Source of the DNA: a virus
Virus record (IMG/VR): IMGVR_UViG_3300030399_000059
Location: 1 to 32,120 of that record
DNA: 32,120 nucleotides
Direction: 5' to 3' (one strand)
Shown here: one piece after another, positions 15,636 to 32,120 of the stretch
How positions within the stretch are numbered: the stretch's first letter is position 1
Layout: each line of letters begins with the position of its first letter
Notes under the pieces: model-generated
Database searches by the model: none
The model's input: the letters and a program-made list of their open reading frames with translations, nothing else
Told to the model about the DNA's origin: nothing
Position numbers and translations under genes: made by a program

Positions 15636-15920
15636 ATGGCAAATCGAATATCACTACTTTGCTTAGGTGGCACATTAGCCCCCTACTCCACCGCAAACAT
15701 AGCAGCACCACAACTCCCCAATGGTGGCGTTTCTGAATATATCAGCTTTGGCGTGGACCAGCTTCAAAGGAATTACGACACCACCACGGCGCAGCAAACC
15801 GCGTTTCCATTTGCCCTTTCTGGCATCACTGTCAAGTTTGTTGATGCCAACCATTTCAGAACGGCGTTCTACTTTCTGGGGCAAAATCAGACAGAAGTAA
15901 ATAACCTTGCAAATGCTTAA
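15636..15920 (+). CDS. Small paralogue A of a tandem plus-strand pair
   Basis: 94 residues. Shares with its downstream neighbour the layout MA.RI.L..LGG..APY, then APQL..G.VSE, DTT.A, PFAL..I.VK.V and a closing VN.LA, so the two are tandem duplicates. It has a clear A-rich leader before the ATG. Gly/Ser/Thr/Asn-rich and without a membrane segment, it could be a small virion decoration protein, but I recognise no family. It lies on the opposite strand to all late genes around it. Confidence 0.7.
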   Translation: MANRISLLCLGGTLAPYSTANIAAPQLPNGGVSEYISFGVDQLQRNYDTTTAQQTAFPFALSGITVKFVDANHFRTAFYFLGQNQTEVNNLANA

Positions 15921-15979: not shown

Positions 15980-16261
15980 TTGGCACAAAGGATCACCTTA
16001 CCCGTCTTAGGCGGCGCGATGGCGCCATACGGGTCACACGCACCACAGTTACAAACCGGAAACGTATCTGAAAATTGGCATTACGACGTAACGGACGTTG
16101 GAAAGGCTGTCGATACTACAGCCGCCGTCCGGGCCCAGTATCCGTTCGCTCTTTGCTCCATCAGGGTTAAAAATGTGGCTACTACGGTATCTACCCACTA
16201 CAAAGGGCAGATGTTGTATTTGTCAATCAACTCCGCTGCGGTGGATGCTTTGGCAGGGTAA
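15980..16261 (+). CDS. Small paralogue B of a tandem plus-strand pair
   Basis: 93 residues with a TTG start at 15980. No ATG is available: the frame has a stop at 15965-15967 and only ACT/ACA codons in between, and the MAQRITLPVLGG start matches paralogue A's MANRISLLCLGG. It keeps the APQL..GNVSE, DTTAA and PFAL..IRVK positions but differs strongly in the last third. A terminator follows within 25 bases. Function unknown; see paralogue A. Confidence 0.65.
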   Translation: MAQRITLPVLGGAMAPYGSHAPQLQTGNVSENWHYDVTDVGKAVDTTAAVRAQYPFALCSIRVKNVATTVSTHYKGQMLYLSINSAAVDALAG

Positions 16262-16423: not shown

Positions 16424-16906
16424 TTAATTACATTCAATTACTGTTTTTCCAAGATCTGAAAGCATTAAGATATTTAAATTTTCTGGACCATAAGCAACCA
16501 GGCAAATTGTACAACCGCTGTTCGCCTTAGCCCTTGTTCCATCAATGTAATAAAAATGGGGTCTCGCCTCCAAAAATAAAATTCCTGCACACTTGCCCCA
16601 AACATATTTATAAGCGTTTTCTGTTTCAAGGGCAGCTGGAATTAACATTATCCCATTGTTGTGTTCGGCCATTTTTTCCATCCATAAGCCACGTTGATAA
16701 CGGTTAAAAGGTGGATTAAGCCACACGCGGCCAGCCCATTTTTGCATAAGTCCATCTTCTTTGGGAGTAAAACTTTTGTGAGCTGTTTTAAATGGGGAAC
16801 TTATGGAATCAGCTGGATCAAGATCAAACTGACAAAGTTTTGACAAAATTTCCGGCGGAGTAAACCACTCATCGCTTTTACCGACTGTGCTTTGGTGTTT
16901 CTTCAT
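16424..16906 (-). CDS. Phage DNA N6-adenine methyltransferase (Dam, PF05869 type)
   Basis: Start moved to the ATG at 16906, which overlaps the previous stop as ATGA; this gives 160 residues. Family landmarks are DEWFTPPEIL near residue 12, FDLDPA at 27-32, and the catalytic NPPF motif at 64-67 within WAGRVWLNPPF. Such enzymes methylate adenine in phage DNA and protect it from host nucleases. The C-terminal half has the usual GIMLIPA strand and GCTICLVAYG. It is co-translated with the D12-class methylase just upstream, giving two unrelated adenine methylases in a row. Confidence 0.88.
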   Translation of the reverse strand: MKKHQSTVGKSDEWFTPPEILSKLCQFDLDPADSISSPFKTAHKSFTPKEDGLMQKWAGRVWLNPPFNRYQRGLWMEKMAEHNNGIMLIPAALETENAYKYVWGKCAGILFLEARPHFYYIDGTRAKANSGCTICLVAYGPENLNILMLSDLGKTVIECN

Positions 16907-17613
16907 ACTAAAATTAGTTTTTGTTGAATATTGTTGAAGTGCGTATGATAATTTGTCCAAATACATTCAGCAGACCTTCCAGAAAGTACGTTTTGGCTAA
17001 CCATTGGTAAAAACGGCAACCATGTTGCTTTACTATTTTCACAAACCATTGTCTGCCCTTTTCGAGACTTGCACCAATATGACAAACTATTAAAATCAAT
17101 TTTTTTATTACTATGAATATATGCATGTCCACCAAACTGATAAGGTGGGTCAATAAACCATGTGGCTACCTCGTTTTCTATTTCGTCAAAGGATCCACAA
17201 CGTATTTCCCAATGTCTGATTTTATATAATTGCGAGGCTATTTTTTTGATTTTATAGTTTTGTGAATTTGGCCTATGTCTGGCTCTTGGTGAAGCTATTT
17301 TTCTCGGATTAGTAGATCCAAACCCAACCAAAAAACCGACAAGATAACGCTGTGCATCGCAATCATAAACATGGTTGTTAATATTTTCATTCTCCTTAAA
17401 ACGAGGTAGTCCTAAAATATCTTTTTCGCTACATTGTTGTAACCACTTCCAAATTTCAGTAATCACCGGATATTTATCAACTAATAAAACTTCCTTTTCC
17501 CAATATTTTAGAGCATAACGCGCGGTCCCTGCAAATGGCTCAATAATTTTATCGTGAACCGGCGCTGGGTACAAGTCAATGATATTTGTTTTGGACCCGT
17601 AATAGGAAAACAT
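16903..17613 (-). CDS. D12-class DNA adenine methylase
   Basis: Start set at the ATG at 17613 (MFSYYGSK); an in-frame TTG lies 9 bases upstream. 236 residues. The SAM-binding FSYYGSK start and IIEPFAGTARYAL (23-35) correspond to the PF-GSG motif, and the catalytic motif is DPPY (155-158) in WFIDPPYQFGGH. It is somewhat short for the family (about 260-280). The target sequence cannot be read off. No restriction enzyme lies nearby, so it probably serves DNA protection. Confidence 0.88.
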   Translation of the reverse strand: MFSYYGSKTNIIDLYPAPVHDKIIEPFAGTARYALKYWEKEVLLVDKYPVITEIWKWLQQCSEKDILGLPRFKENENINNHVYDCDAQRYLVGFLVGFGSTNPRKIASPRARHRPNSQNYKIKKIASQLYKIRHWEIRCGSFDEIENEVATWFIDPPYQFGGHAYIHSNKKIDFNSLSYWCKSRKGQTMVCENSKATWLPFLPMVSQNVLSGRSAECIWTNYHTHFNNIQQKLILV

Positions 17614-17711
17614 ACTATTCAAATTTTATTATTCTGCGCACGTTTAAAGTGGGTAAACTCGTCGGCGGGCGCGGGGTAAAATAATGTTGTTAGGGTCTAT
17701 TTTCATGTGGT

Positions 17712-18385: not shown

Positions 18386-19396
18386 TTAAAAAGGTATTTC
18401 TTCTTGCGTTTCTTCGGGTTTAAAATCTATTTGCTGTTCTGCATCGGGCATTTGTTCGGGTGTATCAGAACCCTTTGGTTGCTCAAAGGCATAAAAATTA
18501 GCTCCCCATTCCTGCTCGAAGTATCTGTTTTTCTTCCAATCGAAAAATATTTTACAATCACCCCTGAACGACACTCCTTTTGGTTTAGCTTTATCAATGT
18601 AAACCAAGCAGACGTTATCTCCGTGAGGCTGTCCATACTCGTTTCTTAACTTTGAAGGCGGTCGCCATAAAGTAATCCATGTCATAGCCTTACGATATAG
18701 GGCCTGTCCTCCTGCAGCTTGCCTGGGAAGTGGCTTAGGGTAGTAAGTTAACCCATCTTTTGTAATCGGCGTTGCTGATCCGCTTGGATGTATCGTCAAA
18801 ATAAAGTGCCTGTTTCTCTTTCGACACAACCGGCGCATACCTCCCATCAAATCTTCAATGTATAAATCCTGCCTGGTTCCGAAAAAAGCCATAGCTGAGT
18901 GATCGAGTTCATTGTACGGTTCACCTACAATAATATCAATCCTTTCGCCGGGATGATCTTTTTCCCATTGATCAGCCAATTTAAATAACTCCGGTATAGA
19001 ATAAGATTTATCGTCGGTATCAACGATAACGAATAGGTGGTTAAGCCATTCAAGGGCTTTTATAAAATCTTTATCTTCAAGATGGTTGTATTCTGTAAGG
19101 TAAATTTTCTTTCCAGTAATCTTATGTACCAACTCGGCTATTATTTCCTCTACCGTTCCGGTTTCCGGGGAGCAGATCAGCGAACGCTTACCGAATTTTT
19201 CAGCCTGGTTAATACACAATTCAAAAGTAAACTCTGATTTACCGTGTGTAGGCTCTGAATAAATAATGGTGAAAGTGCCCTGTTTTACGGAATAAAGTTT
19301 ATCCAGGCAGCGGAAGCCGGTATCTTCACCCCTTACAATACCCGATTTCCTTAGTTTTTCAAGGCCGGGGAGCATATCCATTATTGACTTTATCAT
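18386..19396 (-). CDS. DnaB/RecA-fold replicative ATPase (helicase-like)
   Basis: 336 residues. A DnaB-type core: GFRCLDKLYSVKQGTFTIIYSEPTHGKSEF (27-56) has the Walker A SEPTHGKSE. RIDIIVGEPYNEL near 152-164 is the Walker B strand and RHFILTIHPSG (196-206) the sensor strand. An Arg-rich segment precedes the last strands (KAMTWITLWRPPSK). There is no primase domain. The Glu/Gln-rich tail ends EETQEEIPF, like the acidic tip of SSB proteins. The start overlaps the initiator gene's stop by one base (TGATG), so the two are co-translated. Likely unwinds DNA at the origin in the gene upstream. Confidence 0.85.
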   Translation of the reverse strand: MIKSIMDMLPGLEKLRKSGIVRGEDTGFRCLDKLYSVKQGTFTIIYSEPTHGKSEFTFELCINQAEKFGKRSLICSPETGTVEEIIAELVHKITGKKIYLTEYNHLEDKDFIKALEWLNHLFVIVDTDDKSYSIPELFKLADQWEKDHPGERIDIIVGEPYNELDHSAMAFFGTRQDLYIEDLMGGMRRLCRKRNRHFILTIHPSGSATPITKDGLTYYPKPLPRQAAGGQALYRKAMTWITLWRPPSKLRNEYGQPHGDNVCLVYIDKAKPKGVSFRGDCKIFFDWKKNRYFEQEWGANFYAFEQPKGSDTPEQMPDAEQQIDFKPEETQEEIPF

Positions 19397-20118
19397 CAGT
19401 TACTCGGGTTTGAATCAATAATTTGTTTTGGCCCCATAGTAATATATTTCTCAAATTCATCCATCCTCGTAATAAATTCCGGAGTTAAATATTCTTGAGT
19501 GTTTCGCTCGGTCATTTCTAAAAGGGCCGTTTGTGCGGCCCTTTTTATATCGTGTCGGGTATACTTAAGTTTTACTAATTCGTTAAACTGTCGCCTTGTT
19601 TTATCACTTAAAACTTTAAACTTTTTTCCAGTCACCTCTACCATAATATTTAAAAAAATCTGCTCCTTTTCGCTTAATGGTAGTTTACTACCATTCTTCT
19701 TAACCTTCTTTACTTTATTGTCTGTGTTCACTGGCTGTTCACTGGCTGTTCGCTGGCTGTTCACTGGCTGTTCATCATATTCTAATTCATTATTGTAAGT
19801 TTCAAAATTACAGATAGTTATGATTGAATATTGGTTGTTCGATTTTACAATAATAGACCCATCGGTCTCAAAAATCTTTAAAACTCGATAAATCATTGAT
19901 GCATCAATATCGAGTTCCTCCTCCGCTTTATTTCTACCGAAAACAAATTGACCTATTTCGAGTTCAACATTAGTATATCCAGGGCCGATTTTTAATGATA
20001 CAACCCGCTGCTTGTGGCTTGCCTTTAATAACATCCATATCCAAACTTTCAAGTGATTAGGGTTTCTGAATTGCTGACTATCGAGCAACTGACGATGTAG
20101 TTTAATATATCCAGGCAT
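19396..20118 (-). CDS. Phage replisome organiser / DnaD-like replication initiator
   Basis: 240 residues. The N-terminal part (GYIKLHRQLLDSQQFRN and LKVWIWMLLKASHK, then ASMIYRVLKIFETDGSI) is the winged-helix domain of phage replisome organisers. The C-terminal part (about 160-225, TGKKFKVLSDKTRRQFNEL with YTRHDIKRAAQ and EYLTPEFITRMDEFEKYI) matches the phage conserved C-terminal (Phg_2220_C-like) pattern. The linker between them is encoded by an 11-bp tandem repeat that is probably the replication origin. The helicase-like gene follows with overlapping codons. Confidence 0.85.
   Translation of the reverse strand: MPGYIKLHRQLLDSQQFRNPNHLKVWIWMLLKASHKQRVVSLKIGPGYTNVELEIGQFVFGRNKAEEELDIDASMIYRVLKIFETDGSIIVKSNNQYSIITICNFETYNNELEYDEQPVNSQRTASEQPVNTDNKVKKVKKNGSKLPLSEKEQIFLNIMVEVTGKKFKVLSDKTRRQFNELVKLKYTRHDIKRAAQTALLEMTERNTQEYLTPEFITRMDEFEKYITMGPKQIIDSNPSN
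19726..19774. repeat. Iteron array: four 11-bp tandem repeats, candidate origin
   Basis: GTTCACTGGCT repeats at 19726, 19737, 19748 (with one A to G change) and 19759, followed by a partial copy to 19774. The 11-bp period equals about one helix turn and is not a multiple of three, so the protein reads EQPVNSQRTASEQPVNT and the repeat is kept at the DNA level. An AT-rich stretch follows at about 19775-19860. This is the arrangement of an origin inside its initiator gene (as in lambda O). Confidence 0.75.
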
Positions 20119-21681: not shown

Positions 21682-22140
21682 TTATTTGAATTTTAAAGGA
21701 ATCTGTTTTTCCGGATACGGTATTTCCCACTCAAAATTCATCCTAAACCATTGGCGAATATCATCAAGTTTAAACTCAAACTCAACCGTGCTTAGTTTTG
21801 CCGATGACCCCGGTAGGCGAACAATTTCCCCGGTGGATTCAATGACCTTAGTATCGCCTAAGAAATTTTGTTTGTTCCAATCATGTATTTGCTTTTTATC
21901 GTATACCTCTCCCCAAAACTCTTTAAAACAATCTATTTCAAATTGTAAGAAGTACCCCCAATAAAAATCGTTCTGTTGTAAGCTACGCGGTTTACTGCGG
22001 CTTTTAACCGTAACGGTGATATTAGCGCCATTGTCAAACGCTTGTTTTAAATCACGATACACATAAGCCTCATTGACATATTTAATGCTGCAGTCATTGT
22101 CACCGGTGTGGATTAGCTTCGCGTCGTAGGATTTGGTCAT
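21682..22140 (-). CDS. Hypothetical protein with NinB-like motif
   Basis: 152 residues. The segment KPRSLQQNDFYWGYFLQFE (about 50-68) resembles the R(S/T)..QN..yW motif of NinB and related phage recombination-mediator proteins, but the rest is not diagnostic. The start overlaps the stop of the Gp37/Gp68-type gene (ATGA), so the two are co-translated. Assignment as NinB-like is tentative. Confidence 0.6.
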   Translation of the reverse strand: MTKSYDAKLIHTGDNDCSIKYVNEAYVYRDLKQAFDNGANITVTVKSRSKPRSLQQNDFYWGYFLQFEIDCFKEFWGEVYDKKQIHDWNKQNFLGDTKVIESTGEIVRLPGSSAKLSTVEFEFKLDDIRQWFRMNFEWEIPYPEKQIPLKFK

Positions 22141-23000
22141 CTTTTAGGTGGCTTTGGAAATTCTCTAAACTTTATAGAAGCTGGAAACTCGTCGAAGTTG
22201 CCGCCATGCCGGTCGCTTATTCCGAGTTCCTTTGCAAGGTGGGTGCCAACCTGCTTAACGAAAACGGGGATATGAACATACTTACAGGCGGCAATAATGT
22301 CCTCTATCCACTTTATTTCGCACGGACGGTATTTATATTTACCAACATCGTTGCCGCTCTCTCCGCCGACGATTACCCAATCTATGCCGTGAATAATCGG
22401 CGGTTCGATGGGTTGACCCATACAGCCACACATAAACCCATTACAACACATTGGCGGCCCCTGCGGCCACACATCTAACGGATACATTAAATCAAGCGGG
22501 CCGTGTAGCGGCTCTAATGAAAGAAACTTAACTGTTGCCTTTGGTGCGCGTAGTAGATCATCAAGGCGCTGGATCCCGGCCTCACTGCCTATCGACGTGC
22601 CCAGCCACACGTTATTCCATCCGTTACCCCAATCGACCGGCAGATGGTCGGCGATGCGTTCAGGGCGTTTAGTGAGTATCTGGAACGTTAAGTGCGGACA
22701 CTTGCGAATAATATCCCACGCCTCATTTCTGAAACCATCGATATCCTCATGGAAGAAGTCAGTTAGCGACGAAGTAAATATCAAAGGGTTTCCCTCCCAG
22801 CAGGCTGATTTTGTTTCCTTGTAGTGAAGCGGCAGCATGAACACGGTCTTTGTCTTCAAGACCTGGTCAGGTTTATAGCGGGTAGCGTTTAGCGACTGCC
22901 GGTACATATAGCAGTATTTGCAATCGGCGTCAACCTTAGTGCAGCCACGGGCCACATTCCAGGTTCCATCCGTCCATTGAATTTCAGATATATTTCCCAT
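22137..23000 (-). CDS. Phage Gp37/Gp68-type three-cysteine protein (DUF5131)
   Basis: 287 residues. The start MGNISEIQWTDGTWNVARGC, with GCTKVDADCKYCYMYR, is the family signature: C20, C27 and C30 could hold an iron-sulfur cluster in a radical-SAM-like TIM barrel. FQILTKRPERI (106-116), FLSLEPLHGPLD (159-170) and DWVIVGGESG (207-216) are the other conserved blocks. An extra four-cysteine insert (PMCCNGFMCGCMG, 183-195) may add a second metal site. The substrate is not known; modification of nucleic acid or of a small molecule has been suggested for radical-SAM relatives. Confidence 0.85.
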   Translation of the reverse strand: MGNISEIQWTDGTWNVARGCTKVDADCKYCYMYRQSLNATRYKPDQVLKTKTVFMLPLHYKETKSACWEGNPLIFTSSLTDFFHEDIDGFRNEAWDIIRKCPHLTFQILTKRPERIADHLPVDWGNGWNNVWLGTSIGSEAGIQRLDDLLRAPKATVKFLSLEPLHGPLDLMYPLDVWPQGPPMCCNGFMCGCMGQPIEPPIIHGIDWVIVGGESGNDVGKYKYRPCEIKWIEDIIAACKYVHIPVFVKQVGTHLAKELGISDRHGGNFDEFPASIKFREFPKPPKR

Positions 23001-23437: not shown

Positions 23438-23935
23438 TTATTTTACTTTAACAGTTGCCTTTACGATCACATTTTCGGGGTACTTAATCAACCTGGAACC
23501 CTTAAAAATGTGCTTTGGATTTATCCAGTAAACCTCTTTATACAACGGATTAGCATGTGCGTAGATGTAATTATTGTCGCACAGCACCTGTATAGCCCTT
23601 TTATAAGTGTTCAGAGACTTTATCTCCATCATCTTCATGTAAGATACCCGGTCAACCCAAATAATGTCCTGAGCGGGCTTAATCGTGTGAATGAGCCATA
23701 GGTAGAACTCCTTGCACCTGATCGGTAATTCGTTCACCTGTTTTTTATCGCCGGCATGCTCAAAAACTTTTGTATATGGCGTTTTTTCCAGTTCATATTC
23801 CTTGACATCTTCCTGCTCAAACTTATTGAGAACCTTGAAACTCTTTTTTACCACCGCAATTTCAAGACCCGCCGTAAAAGGGTTTTTACCTATTTTTTCC
23901 GGACTTAAATCAGGTTTGCTTATCGCTTTTGCCAT
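23438..23935 (-). CDS. RepL-like winged-helix protein
   Basis: 165 residues. The segment SLNTYKRAIQVLCDNNYIYA (about 108-127) is a helix-turn-helix, and YWINPKHIFKGSRL (135-148) is the y.iNP..iF.G.R wing pattern known from RepL-type plasmid initiators and phage replication regulators. The N-terminal 50 residues are Lys-rich and probably disordered. It is the first gene of the minus-strand DNA-metabolism operon and is divergent from the D12 methylase, across a 67-base gap with a palindromic operator. Initiator, repressor or activator are all possible. Confidence 0.65.
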   Translation of the reverse strand: MAKAISKPDLSPEKIGKNPFTAGLEIAVVKKSFKVLNKFEQEDVKEYELEKTPYTKVFEHAGDKKQVNELPIRCKEFYLWLIHTIKPAQDIIWVDRVSYMKMMEIKSLNTYKRAIQVLCDNNYIYAHANPLYKEVYWINPKHIFKGSRLIKYPENVIVKATVKVK

Positions 23936-24002: not shown

Positions 24003-24890
24003 ATGAGTTTAGGTATTCCATACATGGGTAGTAAGCGAAAGTTAGCACCCGACATTTTAAGTTTCATCACCTCAAGGCATATCGGCATCACAGATTTTTA
24101 CGACCTATTTGGCGGTGGAGGGTCTGTTTCATTCTGTGCTATTAAAGATCATAGGTTTAAGACCCATTACAATGAATTAAATGACCACATTTACCATCTT
24201 GTTAAGTATCTGAAAAGCAACAGGGAGCTGGGGGCTAAATTTTATGAATGGGTAACGCGTGAAGAATTTTTTAAACAGTGCGCCCGAACCGATGCCGACT
24301 GGTATAGTGGTTTTGTTATGAGTTGCTGGAGTTTTGGGAATAAACAATCATCTTACATTTACGGGGCCGATATTGAGGAACTAAAAAGACTTGCCCATCA
24401 ATTTGTTGTTTTCGGTTGCTTAGATAGCATGAAGAAGCTCGGGCTTGATATACCAACACTACTCGACATTAAAGATATTCAAAAGCGAAGGATTGTCTTT
24501 TGTGATTATGTGGGAAATAGGATACAGAATTTAGAAAGAGTTTCCATGATTGAGCACCTCTCGCGTATTCAAAACCTACAAAACCTACAAATTACGAATT
24601 TATCCTATGAAAACGTAATTATCAGCGGAGAAAATCCGATAATTTATTGCGATATTCCATATAAAGGAACTGTAGTGTATCACGGCGATGCGTTCCATTA
24701 TGACAGGTTTTATCAATGGTTTGGCGATTTAGAATACCCAGCTTATCTTTCAGAGTATGCCGCGCCATTTAAGGAGGTTACAGCGTTTAGGCATAGATCA
24801 TCCTTATCGGCAACTAATAACGGAAAGAAAACTATCGAAAAACTTTTTTGGAATGGAAAAGGAAATATTACCCACTTTAAACTTTTCTAA
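24003..24890 (+). CDS. D12-class DNA adenine methylase (second copy type)
   Basis: 295 residues. Typical D12 start PYMGSKRKLAPDIL (6-19), SAM motif FYDLFGGGGSVS (32-43), and catalytic motif DIPY (217-220) in PIIYCDIPYKGT. It is longer than and only distantly similar to the D12 enzyme at 16903. It stands alone on the plus strand, behind a strong leaderless promoter with an operator inside, and further copies of that operator lie 60-120 bases after its stop, so its expression is probably tightly controlled. No partner endonuclease is visible; DNA protection or gene regulation is likely. Confidence 0.9.
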   Translation: MSLGIPYMGSKRKLAPDILSFITSRHIGITDFYDLFGGGGSVSFCAIKDHRFKTHYNELNDHIYHLVKYLKSNRELGAKFYEWVTREEFFKQCARTDADWYSGFVMSCWSFGNKQSSYIYGADIEELKRLAHQFVVFGCLDSMKKLGLDIPTLLDIKDIQKRRIVFCDYVGNRIQNLERVSMIEHLSRIQNLQNLQITNLSYENVIISGENPIIYCDIPYKGTVVYHGDAFHYDRFYQWFGDLEYPAYLSEYAAPFKEVTAFRHRSSLSATNNGKKTIEKLFWNGKGNITHFKLF

Positions 24891-32000: not shown

Positions 32001-32120
32001 TAAAAAAATTTCTATATATTGATCCGATAAGCTCCGGCGACGGCTCCGGCGACGGCTCCGGCTACGGCTCCGGCGACGGCTCCGGCTACGGCTCCGGCTA
32101 CAGCGACGGCTCCGGCGACG
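31988..32120 (+). CDS. Start of a GSGD/GSGY repeat protein, cut by window end
   Basis: Begins MENVIKKFLYIDPISSGD at 31988, then runs into repeats of a 12-bp unit (GGC TCC GGC plus GAC or TAC) encoding GSGD or GSGY; one unit is broken (GYSDGSG). Related phage genes carry such flexible repeats before a globular DUF7666-type domain, but that part lies outside the window. The repeat is conserved in DNA as well as protein, so copy number may vary by slippage. Confidence 0.7.
   Translation, partial: MENVIKKFLYIDPISSGDGSGDGSGYGSGDGSGYGSGYSDGSGD

Follow-up and report, generated by a model that had tools for sequence, protein, structure and literature searches.

That a phage replication origin can lie within the gene of its initiator is already known. 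In phage lambda, the O protein binds iterons that lie inside O, and an AT-rich tract beside them opens (PMC7466680, PMC5043065, PMC3985674); these 18-bp iterons are known to be the origin (PMC7466680). In phage SPP1, oriL comprises direct repeats and an AT-rich unwinding element inside the initiator gene and is bound by the product of that gene, gp38 (PMC6316719). Repeats of 11 bp within initiator genes have also been marked 'putative ori' in the records of Sf6 and phage L. To our knowledge, the origins of most phages are unmapped. A literature search, mostly of papers outside subscription, returned nothing on point about 11-bp iterons in phage initiator genes; conservation across the family, the AAGAATG array that comes second and the residue-base rules presented below were likewise not found described there.

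The stretch of DNA analysed here (the window) is a full virus record of 32,120 bases, which may be an incomplete genome. A first-pass annotation of it proposed that four head-to-tail 11-bp copies, one of them changed, and a partial fifth form a phage origin embedded in the linker of an initiator gene. Sequence comparison leads us to a similar reading: with a probability of roughly 0.87, the array is the initiator-binding half of a replication origin, built into the linker-coding part of the initiator gene.

The initiator gene and its repeat array

On the plus strand, 19726-19774 reads GTTCACTGGCT, GTTCACTGGCT, GTTCGCTGGCT, GTTCACTGGCT, GTTCA. Read on the coding (minus) strand from 19774 to 19720, the array consists of four copies of TGAACAGCCAG, the third in the form CGAACAGCCAG (C for T), and a diverged fifth unit, TGAACACAGAC (Table 1). 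TRF places it at 19725-19774 with a period of 11, 4.5 copies, 94% matches and a score of 93, the second highest among the 13 arrays of the window, so that the copies noticed at first pass are there by direct reading and by program alike. The strongest TRF array of the window lies at the extreme end of the record (32031-32116) and is a tandem repeat of period 12 with 7.2 copies (GCTCCGGCTACG). Exact copies of GAACAGCCAG number four in the window, all of them within 19726-19774, and allowing up to one mismatch gives five against 1.18 expected. The 11-bp repeat is real and no product of chance. Because 11 is not a multiple of 3, each copy is translated in a different frame from the one before, and all three are used (EQPVNSQRTASEQPVNT).

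Table 1. Positions of the initiator gene, its repeats and the neighbouring helicase-like gene in the window.
Feature	Position	Strand	Basis
Replication initiator ORF, 240 aa	19396..20118	minus	phrog_2514, Phg_2220_C, tblastn relatives
N-terminal winged-helix domain, residues 1-110, proposed iteron reader	19789..20118	minus	AlphaFold
Codon of Arg62, which opens HTH helix 62-69 and is coupled to iteron column 4	19933..19935	minus	
Codon of Ser74, second in recognition helix 73-85 and coupled to iteron column 3	19897..19899	minus	
Iteron 1, TGAACAGCCAG	19764..19774	minus	direct reading, TRF, register alignment
Iteron 2, TGAACAGCCAG	19753..19763	minus	direct reading, TRF, register alignment
Iteron 3, CGAACAGCCAG	19742..19752	minus	direct reading, TRF, register alignment
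Iteron 4, TGAACAGCCAG	19731..19741	minus	direct reading, TRF, register alignment
Terminal diverged iteron, TGAACACAGAC	19720..19730	minus	junction list
Purine-rich stretch AATAAAGTAAAGAAGGTTAAGAAGAATGG, proposed unwinding element	19691..19719	minus	weaker version of relatives' AAGAA(TG) array
Helical C-terminal domain (residues 158-226, Phg_2220_C-like), proposed to recruit the helicase	19441..19647	minus	Pfam, AlphaFold
DnaB-like ATPase/helicase gene, immediately downstream of initiator	18386..19396	minus	PF03796, phrog_5482/239/19

The array occupies codons of about residues 115-133, between the N-terminal winged helix and the C-terminal helical domain. AlphaFold models most of residues 20-100 with a pLDDT of about 96-98 (helices 62-69 and 73-85, wing strands 89-93/98-102), leaves the array-containing linker (residues 110-149, approximately) disordered and gives a helical C-domain, which agrees with the earlier placement of the repeats in a linker. 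The adjoining stretch is AT-rich, as had been noted, and the adjacent 50-nt tail is also 72% purine. GC skew across the window, suggested earlier as a check, tracks gene strand (with a switch near 24 kb) and is uninformative on the array site.

The label 'DnaD-like' for the initiator is that of PHROG names: phrog_2514 ('DnaD-like helicase loader') matches residues 1-155, the N-terminal half, at E=9.6e-28. A Pfam search of the protein found no DnaD/DnaB_2 (PF07261) domain, and its N-domain gave no match to PF04492. The C-terminal part resembles Phg_2220_C (PF09524) at 26.1 bits (E=9.2e-6), just short of the gathering cut-off of 27. The N-domain is related to initiators of Staphylococcus, Listeria, Enterococcus and Lactobacillus phages and to P22-type and lambdoid O proteins, with tblastn matches to the Staphylococcus, Listeria, P22-type and lambdoid members, and its fold matches an ECP1 O protein fragment with a TM of 0.85 on the target. 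PDB sequence and fold searches returned generic winged helices at E>0.05 (best E=0.07) and no significant solved structure, and a direct search of viral contigs with the window protein found no close relative.

The helicase-like gene reported next to the initiator is indeed there: its product matches the DnaB-like ATPase family PF03796 at E=1.6e-4, below the curated cut-off, and also phrog_5482/239/19. A search of genome contigs with this helicase gave no match. A possible second replication-related gene lies at 23438-23935 (-), and its 165-aa product matches RepL weakly (E=0.014, below cut-off). Elsewhere the record holds genes for three proteins that resemble DNA adenine methyltransferases, one matching Dam and two MethyltransfD12, at 16424-17622 (-) and 24003-24890 (+), a DUF5131 protein (22137-23000, -; E=1e-52) adjoining a NinB-like recombination mediator at 21682-22140, and two adjacent similar-looking proteins of 94 and 93 aa, apparently paralogues, at 15636-15920 and 15980-16261 (+) between minus-strand genes.

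Arrays in related initiators

All eight distant relatives compared (from Staphylococcus, Enterococcus, Listeria, Pseudomonas, Lactobacillus, Klebsiella, Salmonella and Vibrio phages) carry a period-11 array directly after the winged helix, with a unit that differs from phage to phage. An initial alignment of relatives was too diverse for pattern search. The survey drew on viral contigs, on phage records and on bacterial genomes, Bacteroidota and a second phylum among them, and comprised 345 initiator loci, three of them the window itself, in 126 clusters at 70% N-domain identity, and 123 of these clusters had enough linker to be scored. A strong 11-bp array (lag-11 score of at least 14) lies at the equivalent place in 87 of the 123, and in 90 the lag-11 score exceeds that of all 100 synonymous recodings of the same peptide. 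Such arrays are nearly absent from control sequence: one among 2019 180-nt windows taken elsewhere in these loci, none in the N-domain coding sequence of 126 clusters and none in the C-terminal coding sequence of 111. The remaining 39 of the 126 clusters fall below the threshold, three of them through lack of sequence; many carry the motif at mixed 11/12-bp spacing and a few show none. The comparison across related phages that had been proposed thus extends the repeat well beyond the window, and initiators with no repeat in the linker, named at the outset as the observation that would speak against an origin here, are limited to a few outliers. One locus, L080, has an array of period 22 (TGGAACGATAGCCGAACGCAAA), possibly a two-turn variant of the 11-bp iteron.

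The array appears to be a property of the N-domain rather than of its neighbours. The closest relatives of the window's helicase (64% identity, two loci with the same match) stand beside an initiator of similar length that has an unrelated N-domain, HTH_36, and no 11-bp array; conversely, array-bearing initiators vary in their C-domain, which is DnaB_2 in Staphylococcus and another in the P22 type, and in the gene downstream, from which it follows that the array goes with the N-domain. In the HTH_36 initiators at L010:3321-3995 and L011, the linker peptide CENDKGVCENDKHS forms a 7-residue repeat, which may hint at another iteron type.

In most relatives the array ends in a half unit, ACACA[AGT]AC, after which there usually come repeats of the AAGAATG type at intervals of 9 bp and sometimes 8 bp, so that this downstream array also breaks the reading frame. 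At least two AAGAA motifs lie within 50 nt in 74 of the 87 arrays, against 25 of 973 background control windows, and Lys-Asn is written AAGAAT in 180 of 206 instances downstream of the array, against 29 of 137 elsewhere in the genes. The second element of the window is weaker than that of most relatives. One possible role for the AAGAATG array is that of a reiterated single-strand or unwinding signal, to which the DnaA-trio would be a parallel. Stretches of period 8 occur in the downstream arrays of L303, L103, L340, L126 and L121.

Constraint on the DNA of the linker

When the 87 arrays are aligned in register they share the consensus YGAMCARCAAR (columns 0-10), with A at column 5 in 98% and C at column 7 in 96%. 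Iterons start in all three codon phases (104, 99 and 125 starts). Variation within the arrays tracks the iteron column and not the codon position: mismatches to each array's own consensus are distributed very unequally among iteron columns (p=6e-27), whereas their rates at codon positions 1, 2 and 3 are 8.3, 6.3 and 8.1% (p=0.10), in arrays that were picked by lag-11 DNA self-similarity, which may favour flat codon-position rates. Over 50 nearest-neighbour pairs filtered for overall similarity, third-position change is 0.20 in the array and 0.41 in the folded N-domain. The claim that selection here acts on DNA is therefore backed by a period that is kept while units differ, by its absence from background sequence and by independence from codon position.

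Covariation between initiator residues and iteron bases

Among all pairs of N-domain position and iteron column, the strongest couplings join residue 62 to column 4 and residue 74 to column 3. Initiators with R62 have C at column 4 in 97 of 99 cases, and those with another residue mostly have A or T, also G; where residue 74 is R, Q, K, N or D, column 3 is mostly C, and where it is S, A, T, G, I or V, column 3 is A in all but two. The corresponding phi values are 0.83 and 0.80, and neither was reached in any of 4000 simulations of the base trait on an N-domain tree built without columns 61, 62 and 74; by this measure the tree does not account for the covariation. Strongly supported branches provide only 5-6 independent pairs, with which a sign test cannot reach 0.05, and because this strict test is underpowered we relied on the tree simulations and on a hold-out. 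The hold-out comprised 41 unseen initiators, all below 85% identity, whose register was set without regard to columns 3 and 4. It upheld the residue-62 rule (p=0.001) and the residue-74 rule marginally (p=0.048), and some of the exceptions resemble errors of register. Both rules are followed by the window (R62, S74, unit TGAACAGCCAG). The starts of HTH helices are the usual sites of DNA contact in winged helices, and in the AlphaFold model R62 begins one such helix and S74 is the second residue of the recognition helix. Recognition of the iterons by the initiator's own N-domain is thus a prediction that the covariation strongly supports.

Discussion

We read the locus from results obtained by computation, namely the array, its conservation as DNA and the covariation of HTH residues with iteron bases, and from these we infer binding stoichiometry, melting, helicase loading and origin firing, with lambda and SPP1 oriL in gene 38 (PMC6316719) as the models for melting and firing. 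The N-terminal winged helices would bind the 11-bp iterons side by side, and since there is one iteron per helical turn, adjacent protomers would sit on nearly the same face of the DNA. The iteron-bound complex, which would correspond to the O-some of lambda, would then destabilise the purine-rich AAGAA stretch just downstream, and the C-terminal domain would recruit the DnaB-like helicase encoded next door. The earlier suggestion of an origin layout embedded in the initiator gene thus gains comparative backing, and a start of replication at this place is suggested by homology to the lambda and P22 types.

Other explanations of the repeat fit less well. Linkers often hold repeats, and this one is disordered, so slippage could have multiplied an 11-bp unit where any hydrophilic peptide (here EQPVNSQRTAS) is tolerated, with no function in the DNA. 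We consider this very improbable, since gain or loss of an 11-bp copy shifts the frame, dozens of lineages with differing units retain the period, which is nearly absent elsewhere, variation follows iteron column and not codon position, third positions change less in the array than in the folded domain (0.20 versus 0.41, in pairs filtered for similarity), and the iteron bases covary with HTH residues. Covariation of this sort shows recognition and not purpose, and iteron initiators often autoregulate; the iterons might then mainly regulate their own gene as an intragenic operator, or copy number through handcuffing, with replication starting elsewhere. This is unlikely, although less so than a repeat without function: a fixed second element beside the iterons matches the layout of an origin, no comparable repeat cluster occurs elsewhere in the window, and the 18-bp lambda iterons inside O, annotated as ori iterons, belong to a known origin (PMC7466680). 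Least probable of all is service in another phage process such as packaging or recombination. Clustered repeats can be sites for either, but these arrays accompany the initiator's N-domain while C-terminal families and neighbours vary from phage to phage, and they covary with that same domain.

A wider proposal is one that we hold to be probable, with less confidence than the reading of this locus: a single, very widespread class of origin, in which an N-terminal winged-helix module and a two-part in-gene origin (11-bp iterons whose bases are read by a simple code in residues 62 and 74, then AAGAATG every 8-9 bp) travel as a portable cassette that is combined with differing helicase-recruiting C-domains in phages and prophages of several bacterial phyla, and whose origins could be located, and their specificity partly predicted, from the initiator. 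The pattern would offer a sequence-only route to origins in a large initiator superfamily, because the same layout recurs in more than 100 distantly related phage genes and makes origins of this type findable and partly readable. Since single amino acids are linked to single origin bases, origin specificity becomes directly testable. The linker is also an example of a coding region under heavy constraint at the DNA level, which would mislead a reading of it based on the protein.

Comparison with known systems

TP901-1 orf13 is, like the initiator of the window, called DnaD-like, and its record marks an experimentally shown replication protein; its N-domain looks unrelated and its repeats are of about 15 bp, with none of 11 bp. 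The origins of TP901-1 and A2 were rejected as verified homologues because their repeats differ. SPP1 oriL is likened to the window by its published layout, and SPP1 differs in having a second origin, oriR.

The best N-domain relatives are the 'DnaD-like helicase loaders' of Staphylococcus, Listeria and Enterococcus phages (phrog_186/2514; 40% in Staphylococcus phage HSA84), which likewise carry 11-bp arrays and also AAGAATG arrays, in the examined records without an origin annotation; at the C-terminus, the Staphylococcus member carries DnaB_2 (PF07261) where the window has a domain like Phg_2220_C. The gp18/O initiators of the P22/Sf6/HK022 type also have a related N-domain (E ~1e-7 for the P22 type) and 11-bp repeats (TGTCCAACGGA, TACCAGCAAAT) in the same register as the window, and it is at these repeats that the Sf6 and phage L records annotate rep_origin. 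They differ from the window in having two separated clusters of 2-3 copies in place of one run of 4-5, and in the C-terminal domain.

The resemblance to lambda O and ori-lambda extends to several features. The winged-helix N-domains are related (tblastn E 1e-5 to 1e-7, with E=1e-5 to phage HK630, and cross-matches of phrog_345/phrog_2514), the iterons lie within the initiator gene, in the part that separates the N-domain from the C-domain, and an AT-rich, purine-biased tract stands beside them in the window as in lambda. The lambda origin has the same order, iterons, GACACAAAAGACAC and an A/G-rich tract, and the GACACAAAAGACACTATTACAAAAGAAAAAAGAAAAG that follows its fourth iteron agrees in order and character with the second element of the window. 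The iterons themselves differ: those of lambda are imperfect inverted repeats of 18-19 bp, to which O binds as a dimer, with starts every 20-24 bp, whereas those of the window are contiguous, direct, non-palindromic 11-bp units. Given these differences in size, symmetry and spacing, the locus would work like ori-lambda while falling outside its iteron definition, and it is best read as an origin of the lambda O/ori kind within the gene, in which direct iterons of 11 bp take the place of the 18-19-bp palindromes of lambda.
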